DNA of 64,000 nt from Vibrio diabolicus (GTDB taxonomy: Bacteria > Pseudomonadota > Gammaproteobacteria > Enterobacterales > Vibrionaceae), in contig CCKK01000004.1 in NCBI GenBank assembly GCA_001048675.1, positions 1-64,000 on the forward strand. Reading direction: 5' to 3'. This document shows positions 9,964-25,684 of the stretch, piece after piece. The notes under the pieces are model-generated. The model worked only from the letters and a program-made list of their open reading frames with translations. It did no database searches and was not told the DNA's origin. The stretch's first letter is position 1. Each line of letters begins with the position of its first letter. The translations under genes and the position numbers were made by a program.

Positions 9964-10518
9964 TTAAAAGAAGGCCGCACCAATCGCCAACAACACGAAC
10001 AAAATAGCGGTGACTTTACGAATCAACCCCAGGGGCATCTTGTCTGCTGAAAGCTTACCAATTAACACCACAGGCACATTAGCCAACAACATACCAATGG
10101 TCGTGCCAAGTATGACCCAACTCAGCGCATCCGCATACTGCGCGCCTAGGATAGAAGTGGCGATCTGAGTTTTATCACCAATCTCAGCCACAAAGAAAGC
10201 AATAAAGCTGGCAATGAAAGGACCTCGGTTTGAAATCTGTTCGTCATCATCCAACTTATCAGGAATCAACACCCAAGCAGCCATCGCGACAAAACTGACC
10301 ACCAGCACCCACTTTAAAATATCAGGTGATAAATAGTCAGCGACAACCACACCTAACCATGCAGCCAAAGCGTGGTTGGCAATGGTTGCCAAAAAGATTG
10401 CTGCAATAATTGGTATTGGTTTGCGGTAACGACTTGCGAGTAATAGAGATAGCAATTGGGTCTTATCGCCAATTTCTGCTAACGCTACAGTAGTAATTGA
10501 AATAGCTAAAACGCTCAC
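9964..10518 (-). CDS. mneA: Manganese exporter of the GDT1/TMEM165 (UPF0016) family
   Basis: The protein has two copies of the family signature EIGDKTQ, near residues 15 and 115, each in a three-helix repeat. This is the classic GDT1/TMEM165 architecture; the V. cholerae member MneA exports Mn2+. The C terminus is hydrophobic. I use the GTG at 10518 (MSVLAISITTVALAEIGDK, 184 residues), which matches family N termini. The in-frame TTG at 10563 would add 15 unlikely residues and fall against the riboswitch. The yybP-ykoY riboswitch directly upstream supports the Mn2+ role. Confidence 0.88.
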   Translation of the reverse strand: MSVLAISITTVALAEIGDKTQLLSLLLASRYRKPIPIIAAIFLATIANHALAAWLGVVVADYLSPDILKWVLVVSFVAMAAWVLIPDKLDDDEQISNRGPFIASFIAFFVAEIGDKTQIATSILGAQYADALSWVILGTTIGMLLANVPVVLIGKLSADKMPLGLIRKVTAILFVLLAIGAAFF

Positions 10519-10530
10519 GACATGCTCATT

Positions 10531-10581
10531 GGGGCAGGGATTATTATTTTTAACCGAAGACAAACCTCACGCCCCTACCCC
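10531..10581 (-). promoter_or_regulatory. Candidate expression-platform helix of the mneA riboswitch
   Basis: The 3' strand of the riboswitch base helix, GGGGTAGGG (10573-10581 on the minus strand), is complementary with one G-U wobble to CCCTGCCCC (10531-10539), 12 bases before the mneA start codon. Pairing of these segments would compete with the riboswitch P1 helix and place a stable stem beside the ribosome binding site. No U-tract follows, so translation control is more likely than termination. Inference from complementarity only. Confidence 0.5.
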
Positions 10582-10720
10582 GGTTCATGATGATTTGTCT
10601 AAGGTCTTGCTAAACTTGAAAGGCTTCAAGTCTCGAACGCCATGGTGATTTTGCACCAATTATGTTGACGGACGAACCAGATGAAACAGAAACTTCATCA
10701 GGTAAGCTACTCCCCAAAGA
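10570..10720 (-). ncRNA. yybP-ykoY manganese riboswitch
   Basis: Read on the minus strand the leader contains the conserved 5' element TTTGGGGAGTAGCTTAC, a central hairpin region with CGAGACTTGAAGCC and AGACCTTAG, and the closing ACCGGGGTAGGGG. These are the recognisable conserved segments of the yybP-ykoY class, which senses Mn2+ and switches on manganese exporters. It lies between a good promoter and the exporter gene mneA. Confidence 0.88.
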
Positions 10721-10728
10721 CAGGCGCA

Positions 10729-10757
10729 ATTCTAGCCACCTTTGTTGCGCTTCTCAA
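10729..10757 (-). promoter_or_regulatory. mneA promoter
   Basis: Minus-strand TTGAGA (10752-10757) and TAGAAT (10729-10734) with a 17-base spacer. Transcription would start near 10722, just before the riboswitch. Confidence 0.7.
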
Positions 10758-24277: not shown

Positions 24278-25684
24278 TTACGAGGACAGGGTGCGAATCA
24301 AGTTAGAGTAATCTTCTTTAATATCGTGGCTCTCTTCACGCAGCTGCTCAATCTTGCGACACGCATGAAGTACGGTCGTATGATCGCGGCCACCAAACGC
24401 ATCACCAATTTCAGGCAGGCTGTGGTTGGTTAGCTCTTTTGCTAACGCCATGGCCAACTGACGAGGACGCGCTACAGAACGAGAGCGACGTTTGGACAGC
24501 AAGTCAGCCACTTTTATCTTGTAGTATTCAGCCACGGTCTTTTGAATGTTATCGATCGTCACCAGCTTCTCTTGCAGAGCGAGCAGATCGCGCAGCGCTT
24601 CACGAACAAAATCAATCGTAATTGGGCGGCCAGTAAAGTTCGCGTTAGCGATAACGCGGTTCAGTGCACCTTCTAGCTCACGAACGTTCGAACGCAGACG
24701 CTTGGCAATAAAGAATGCCACTTCATCAGCAAGGTGGATTTGGTGATCTTCGGCTTTTTTCATCAAGATCGCCACACGCGTTTCAAGCTCAGGCGGCTCG
24801 ATCGCAACAGTAAGACCCCAACCAAAGCGAGATTTAAGACGATCTTCAACGCCATTAATCTCTTTAGGATAACGGTCAGACGTTAAGATGATCTGCTGGT
24901 TACCTTCCAATAGTGCGTTGAAGGTATGGAAGAATTCTTCTTGCGAACGTTCTTTATTAGCAAAGAATTGGATGTCATCGATAAGGAGTGCATCCACACT
25001 GCGGTAGTAGCGTTTGAATTCTTCAATCGCATTGTTTTGCAGCGCTTTTACCATGTCTTGCACAAAACGCTCTGAGTGCATGTAGACCACTTTCGCGTTC
25101 GGGTTGTTATCCACAATCGCGTTACCCACCGCATGCAATAAGTGGGTTTTACCCAAACCCGTGCCGCCGTATAGGAATAGTGGGTTGTAAGCTGCACCAG
25201 GGTTATCCGATACCTGACGCGCCGCAGCCAAACCCAGTTGGTTCGACTTACCTTCAACAAAGTTGTCGAACTTGTGTTTTGGGTTCATGTTTGAGCGGTG
25301 ATTGATCGCCGCAATCGCTTGAGCGTCGTCATCCCAGGTTTTGTGTACTGGCTTACGTGCCTGTAATTGCGCAGGTGCAGATGACTCCGCAGCCACATCT
25401 GCAGGCGTACGTGTCGGCGCTGGTTTTGGAGCAGAGACAGGTCGACTCCCCACTTCAAAGCGTAAGTTAGGAATGTCGCCACCACAGTATTCCTGTAGTA
25501 AACGAGTAATATTGTTCAGATACTTATCACGCACCCAGTCCAACACAAAGCGGTTTGGCGCGAATAGAGTGAGAGTATTGTCATTGAGCTCCGCTTGTAG
25601 CGGACGAACCCACATGCTGAATTCTGTAGCTGGTAGCTCTTCTTGAAGCTGCTGCAAACATTGCAGCCAAAGCGAAGATGACAC
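24278..25684 (-). CDS. dnaA: Chromosomal replication initiator protein DnaA
   Basis: DnaA binds DnaA boxes at oriC and unwinds the duplex. The 468-residue protein has the N-terminal DnaB-interaction domain, a variable linker rich in Ala/Pro, the AAA+ core with [10 protein letters not shown] and LLIDDIQFF, and the C-terminal DNA-binding domain with [15 protein letters not shown]. The start codon is GTG at 25684. DnaA boxes and many GATC sites upstream suggest autoregulation and SeqA/Dam control. Confidence 0.98.

Follow-up and report, generated by a model that had tools for sequence, protein, structure and literature searches.

A proposed three-helix translational platform for a predicted yybP-ykoY Mn2+ riboswitch upstream of mneA in Vibrio diabolicus

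The mneA gene and its leader

The window, which is the whole stretch of 64,000 nucleotides that was analysed, carries on its minus strand a gene encoding a Mn2+ exporter of the GDT1/UPF0016 family. The gene is called mneA on the basis of family membership and of PMC13274385. The features of the leader and the gene are as follows, in the order in which they would be transcribed.

10729-10757, minus strand: predicted sigma-70 promoter (TTGAGA, 17 nt, TAGAAT; 10/12 consensus)
10612-10727, minus strand: predicted yybP-ykoY Mn2+ riboswitch aptamer (RF00080; match over the full length of the model with 42.7 bits, E 3.5e-10)
10714-10721, minus strand (10721-10714): 5' strand of helix P1, GUCUUUGG, placed by alignment and swap tests
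10707-10715, minus strand: L1, GGGGAGUAG, in invariant alignment columns, with a GGGG that is further proposed to pair with the C-rich/Shine-Dalgarno stretch in the OFF state
10596-10604, minus strand: 3' strand of P1, CCUUAGAC(A), with CCUUAGAC itself at 10604-10597; common to helix S1
10586-10605, minus strand: 5' strand of S1, the P1 3' strand extended to CAUG
10572-10581, minus strand (10581-10572): 5' strand of helix S2, GGGGUAGGGG, G-rich, in the upper part of S1
10553-10571, minus strand: 3' strand of S1, CGUGAGGUUUGUCUUCGGU, the competitor of P1
10531-10540, minus strand (10540-10531): 3' strand of S2, UCCCUGCCCC, C-rich, 12 nt from the start codon
10525-10527, minus strand: weak Shine-Dalgarno (SD) sequence GAG, 6 nt 5' of the start, read from the sequence
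9964-10518, minus strand: mneA, GTG start (Pfam PF01169, E 3.1e-41)

The score of the aptamer lies just below the RF00080 gathering score of 45, and for this reason a default scan of the window does not report the match. No other RF00080 match at E<=0.001 was found in the genome. Both GGGGAGUAG and CGUCAACAUA are found in the aptamer. In a MAFFT alignment of 64 Vibrionaceae leaders, which was not fitted to any structure, the L1 motif and a CAACAUA-type L3 motif occupy columns that are invariant or nearly so; the role of L1 is taken from PMC6754395. The downstream gene belongs to a Mn2+ homeostasis family (PF01169, GDT1). The initial annotation had already placed a manganese riboswitch in front of mneA, and these sequence features support it.

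The promoter is weak evidence alone, because shuffled sequences contain on average 2.4 such sites against one here; many leaders have, as seen by eye and uncounted, hexamers resembling TAGAAT or TAAAAT at this position. With the 3' end of the promoter-like site at 10729, transcription would start immediately 5' of P1. A simple pattern scan detected no intrinsic terminator on the minus strand of the leader, in agreement with the earlier suggestion of a switching platform that works without one. Elsewhere in the window, at 25091-25171 on the plus strand, there is a match to RF02674 (AsdA, the antisense RNA of dnaA) that scores 54.3 bits, the gathering score being 52. It lies antisense within an open reading frame (24278-25684, minus strand) that we take to be dnaA from the way it reads, and it may only reflect the conservation of that gene.

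The codon at the 10518 position is GTG in 80, ATG in 7 and TTG in 7 of the 94 distinct Vibrio leaders, which were selected by a rule that demanded one of these three codons there. GAG is found at most 12 nt 5' of the start in all 94. The GTG start had been read as fitting translational control; the codon is indeed present, but it is not diagnostic, as 14 of the 94 leaders have ATG or TTG instead. The longest mneA reading frame (9964-10563, minus strand) begins at a TTG within the 3' strand of S1, and automatic annotation could misplace the start at this TTG. The TTG at 10563 was rejected as a start because changes in the length of the C-rich strand shift the frame between species, as judged by eye, and it is also disfavoured by the alternation of ATG, GTG and TTG at the 10518 position. 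An out-of-frame mini-ORF, AUG-UCG-UGA, is located at 10515-10523 on the minus strand, and its stop codon overlaps the GTG start (GUGA). The AUG of this mini-ORF is retained in 77 of the 94 Vibrio leaders, though it lies 5' of the start codon.

Leaders compared

Named genomes supplied 80 GDT1 loci, the best of at least 583 confirmed matches. Vibrio contributed 98 loci including the window's own (30 loci and 68 regions): a match was present in 106 of 118 genomes of the genus, and eight weak or fragmentary ones were left out. The 179 candidates, the window among them, yielded 159 parsed leaders, of which 149 are distinct (94 from Vibrio and 55 others, 46 of the 55 from outside the Vibrionaceae). 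Eleven of the 20 that were dropped had no aptamer pattern (L145, L156, L159, L034, L038, L043, L044, L047, L069, L073 and L078); the other nine were Vibrio leaders with a start that did not fit the pattern.

For each of four pairings, P1, S1, S2 and a proposed start-site mask termed AS, a leader's own strands were compared with swapped strands, and shuffles were used in addition. These statistics treat the leaders as independent of one another rather than as related by a tree, and were obtained on sets of different stringency. A thinned set of 34 leaders includes Shewanella and Pseudomonas twice each, a set of 28 includes several Vibrionaceae, Shewanella and Burkholderiales, and a strict set of 19 has one leader per family, the families being judged from record titles. 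The strict set gave lower z-scores than the larger sets and the same verdicts. Three control pairings scored between z -0.4 and 0.7 in the 34 thinned leaders.

The three helices

P1 closes the aptamer and consists of GUCUUUGG (10721-10714) paired with CCUUAGAC (10604-10597). Its 3' strand overlaps the end of the conserved AAGACC, and this placement matches that of the P1.1 strand for which probing is described in PMC6754395. In the alignment of 64 Vibrionaceae leaders, 96.1% of the P1 cells are paired and 26 cells are changed on both sides, neither value being reached in 500 shuffles; only 2 of the 6 pairs have changes on both sides, which is matched by 340/500 shuffles. The swap test gave z 3.5 (2/5000) with the 34 thinned leaders and z 2.4 (62/5000) with the 19 leaders, for which RNAduplex gave z 3.9 (0/5000). 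When the 94 Vibrio leaders and the 55 others were tested separately by RNAduplex, the result was 0/2000 in both groups for P1, and likewise for S1 and for S2. The initial annotation had taken the G-rich strand for the 3' strand of P1. The coordinates and the alignment counts of P1 rule this out, as the G-rich strand is about 15 nt away.

Besides pairing within P1, the 3' strand of P1 can form the hairpin S1 with GGUUUGUCUUCGGU (10566-10553), and this alternative pairing covaries strongly. This helix lacks a U-tract and has a median length of 16 pairs in the 149 leaders. In the Vibrionaceae alignment 96.0% of its cells are paired (0/500 shuffles), and 8 of its 15 pairs, with 60 cells, are changed on both sides (0/500 shuffles for both counts). 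The swap test gave z 13.7 with the 34 leaders and z 10.0 (0/5000) with the 19 leaders, the latter with an RNAduplex value of 10.4. P1 and S1 are mutually exclusive because both use the strand 10604-10597, and both covary in the GDT1 leaders, so that two mutually exclusive folds are conserved. The either/or switch that had been proposed for this leader therefore exists, but its alternatives are P1 and S1. P1 and S2, which had been thought to exclude each other, share no base, and when P1 is imposed in the folding, S2 forms with a mean probability of 0.83 in the Vibrio leaders and 0.78 in the others.

S2 is formed by the G-rich and C-rich strands. The complementarity within 10531-10581 had been located exactly: GGGGTAGGG (10581-10573) pairs with CCCTGCCCC (10539-10531) on the minus strand through eight Watson-Crick pairs and one G-U pair, and one further G-U pair follows at the inner end. 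The window's leader alone is only suggestive, because 16 of 1000 dinucleotide shuffles reach its best-helix score. The best-helix search always yields some helix, so that the mere recovery of S2 in 149 leaders carries no weight; the evidence comes from shuffling and from swapping strands. A value of p<=0.05 was obtained for 107 of the 149 with 100 shuffles each. The swap test gave z 9.2 with the 34 thinned leaders, z 8.3 with the 28 leaders and z 6.6 (0/5000; RNAduplex 4.8) with the 19 leaders, and thus the covariation across homologous leaders that the initial annotation had named as a check was found. In the Vibrionaceae alignment 92.9% of the S2 cells are paired (0/500 shuffles). Changes on both sides occur in 4 of its 9 pairs (5/500 shuffles), a count that is also 4 with the register slid by one, and the pair types do not exceed many shuffles (110/500). 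S2 is the least clean helix in this family, in part owing to length variation of the C-rich strand, which is misaligned.

In more distant leaders the position of S2 is kept and its sequence is changed, to GGCUAGCA x UGCUAGCC in Acinetobacter and to GGGCCGGA x UCCGGCCC in Burkholderiales. S2 and the S1/S2 layout were found in leaders from Vibrio, Acinetobacter, Pseudomonas, Burkholderiales and alphaproteobacteria. The RF00080 match stops at 10612, and both helices are outside it. Judged by covariation, S2 is a real helix that is conserved across families. Its polarity is pronounced: among 37 leaders the 5' strand contains GGG in 32 and CCC in 1, and the 3' strand contains CCC in 30 and GGG in none. 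For comparison, the corresponding counts for S1 are GGG 5 and CCC 0 in the 5' strand, and CCC 3 and GGG 4 in the 3' strand. In 93 of the 149 leaders, 12 or 13 nt separate the 3' end of S2 from the start codon; the range is 7 to 22 nt.

Two other structures were considered for these strands and rejected. A G-quadruplex in GGGGUAGGGG is disfavoured by leaders L028, L060 and L079, which retain S2 without such runs. For an extension of S2 by a CAUG x CAUG pairing, the S1 side varies (CACG, CGUG) and the side near the start is mostly constant, as seen by eye.

That S1 and S2 exclude each other is inferred from the length of the linker between them. It is 6 nt or shorter, with an S1 of at least 11 pairs, in 19 of the 149 leaders, and in these it is by estimate too short to cross S1. 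The median linker in Vibrio is 13 nt, so that an S1-S2 pseudoknot could still form in this genus.

Folding of the leaders and the proposed mechanism

The leaders were folded without pseudoknots, a treatment in which S1 and S2 exclude each other by construction. In unconstrained folding the mean probability of S1 was 0.80 for the 94 Vibrio leaders and 0.79 for the 55 others, and that of S2 was 0.04 and 0.03; the values of S2 given above were reached when P1 was imposed and L1 was held open. On going from the free to the P1-imposed state, AS fell from 0.59 to 0.05 in Vibrio and from 0.34 to 0.01 in the others, and the unpaired fraction of the SD rose from 0.43 to 0.55 and from 0.49 to 0.58, respectively. 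The modelled gain of the SD exceeded 0.1 in 48 of the 94 Vibrio leaders and in 21 of the 55 others, and the SD became worse by 0.1 in three leaders of each group. The opening of the SD predicted by these models is modest.

AS is the pairing of the P1 5' strand together with the GGGG of L1 (UCUUUGGGG) to the 3' end of the C-rich strand together with the SD (CCCCAAUGA). Its swap test gave z 3.1 (6/5000) with the 34 leaders, z 4.7 (0/5000) with the 46 leaders from outside the Vibrionaceae, z 2.2 (102/5000) with the 28 and z 2.4 (61/5000) with the 19. RNAduplex energies, for which a negative z is better, gave -1.7 (259/5000) for the 34 and -3.8 (2/5000) for the 55 leaders; RNAduplex gave 1.6 (295/5000) for the 19. 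Within the 94 Vibrio leaders AS gave no signal (1509/2000), and the P1 strand paired with the SD alone gave none in the sets of 34, 55 and 28 leaders. The swap test has low power for AS because its GGGG is invariant. Examples that fit are UCAUUGGGG x CCCCAGUGA in L030 and CUCCGGGG x CCCCGGAG in L067. Weakly supported as it is by these comparisons, AS appears to be the best candidate for masking the start in the absence of Mn2+, and the polarity of S2 favours it.

The sign of the switch is suggested by related systems. According to PMC13274385, mneA and terC are induced by Mn in V. parahaemolyticus, without a drop-off of reads and with the mechanism left open. PMC11647493 describes E. coli mntP as translationally ON with Mn, its SD being masked without it. 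For these reasons the state with P1 and S2 should be the ON state. In PMC6754395, Mn2+ stabilises P1.1, the switch helix.

On balance, it is somewhat more probable than not that the region serves the yybP-ykoY Mn2+ riboswitch as its translational expression platform and that mneA is turned on by way of three helices. Once complete, with about 16 pairs, S1 would enclose the G-rich strand and block S2, which would thus accompany P1. When Mn2+ is present, L1 would dock, P1 would be held and the 3' strand of S1 could not invade. The C-rich strand, once transcribed, would then zip onto the G-rich strand, and the resulting S2 would lock out S1; the SD, 3 nt downstream, would stay single-stranded and allow translation to start. 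When Mn2+ is absent, S1 would displace P1 and free the 5' strand of the aptamer (UCUUUGGGG), which might then pair with CCCCAAUGA, the C-rich 3' end and the SD, and mask the start; this is the least supported step. Overall, the conservation of the pairing suggests that manganese operates a switch in translation. A bolder and rather doubtful extension is that the invariant GGGG of L1 doubles as the start-site mask across Proteobacteria and upstream of two unrelated exporters. The 5' strand of S2 would in that case be a decoy G-run, the C-rich strand would toggle between the two, and metal binding in L1 would amount to the release of the ribosome site.

Alternative roles of S2

S2 could itself be the OFF helix, masking or crowding the start, a role implicit in the initial annotation. 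It would form a pseudoknot with S1 without Mn2+, and Mn2+ would weaken it by disrupting S1. S2 adjoins the SD in most leaders and extends over it in L193, L194 and L199, which therefore fit an OFF helix better, and the Vibrio linker is long enough that it could bridge S1. On the other hand, at least 10 nt are left between S2 and the start in 137 of the 149 leaders, the 19 leaders with short linkers apparently could not form the pseudoknot, no competitor of S2 was found for the Mn2+-bound state, and the energy of S2 as a duplex is about -20 kcal/mol. An OFF role of S2 is accordingly considered unlikely.

Less likely still is a reading in which S2 mainly shields the C-rich strand from Rho, the strand being free without Mn2+, with Rho-dependent termination as the result, and covered with Mn2+. 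The C-runs in 30 of 37 S2 3' strands would suit such a function. A typical Rho site, though, is longer than the roughly 9 nt of the C-rich strand. Acinetobacter, moreover, retains S2 without a C-run (L060, L079). According to PMC11647493, Rho-dependent termination at E. coli mntP is partly relieved by Mn, and inhibition of Rho binding has been proposed; against this, V. parahaemolyticus has no read drop-off (PMC13274385). Finally, S2 might be constitutive, spacing the SD or stabilising the mRNA, while only P1 and S1 switch and act by another route. The regular position of S2 relative to the start and the small change in modelled SD accessibility are what such a helix would give. Yet S1 and S2 are exclusive in nested folding, if by construction, and the linker lengths in the 19 leaders apparently do not allow both, which makes independence from the switch unlikely there; a constitutive S2 is the least probable of these roles.

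The preferred three-helix model, with its named strands, is offered for the route of the signal from Mn2+ to mneA in Vibrio, which PMC13274385 leaves undetermined. The riboswitch class, its ligand and the switching by P1 are already known. Searches of open-licence papers turned up no account of S2 or of the S1/S2 pair, and Dambach 2015, on E. coli mntP, may show related pairings; what is claimed as new is only the description of S1 and S2 as conserved and common to both genes.

The S1/S2 layout upstream of mntP

The mntP loci examined number 31, comprising 30 loci and that of E. coli K-12, and in 14 of them, all from Enterobacterales, a riboswitch is accompanied by a recognisable MntP start. 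L191, a repeat of L190, was omitted from the swap tests. In the remaining 13 leaders S2 gave z 4.4 and S1 z 5.5 (both 0/5000), and in nine spread leaders z was 4.1 for each. By shuffles, S2 has p<=0.05 in 8 of the 14. Covariation of P1 was not seen in the 13 leaders (z -0.6, 3706/5000), and AS was worse there than with swapped strands (z -1.5, 4731/5000). The modelled accessibility of the SD, computed for six mntP leaders, went up in three and down in three. By the covariation of its strands, the S1/S2 layout recurs upstream of mntP, a gene unrelated to mneA. Because the layout also precedes mntP in Enterobacterales, the three-helix model can be tested in a laboratory strain.

Two observations on single leaders may be added. 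L187 is a leader of the same class before an MntP-like protein and has, by eye, a possible S2-like pair, GGUGCA x UGCACC, near the start. L182 and L188, both from genome G208, are two equally scoring RF00080 copies on one contig, separated by about 20 kb; they are identical over the compared leader and the first GDT1 bases, which looks like a recent duplication.

Comparison with known systems

The mneA leader resembles that of E. coli mntP in its aptamer motifs, in the strands of S1 and in a helix, GCUGGGG x CCCCGGU, that ends 12 nt before the start, and mntP is a translational ON switch according to PMC11647493. The two differ in that MntP is not a GDT1 protein, that the stretch between the S1 strands is longer in mntP, and that S2 has only 7 pairs there and, in the E. 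coli leader alone, is not above shuffles (686/1000). The yybP-ykoY riboswitches that have been studied as transcriptional switches, from Lactococcus lactis and, as the aptamer, from Xanthomonas oryzae, are alike in that P1.1 is the switch helix and its 3' strand is contested by a strand downstream (PMC6754395). Their competitor is a terminator, whereas in the mneA leader it is S1, without a U-tract, followed by S2 before the start. E. coli alx carries the same aptamer class, but downstream of the anchor it has, by eye, a local hairpin and a hairpin with a U-run in place of the S1/S2 layout.
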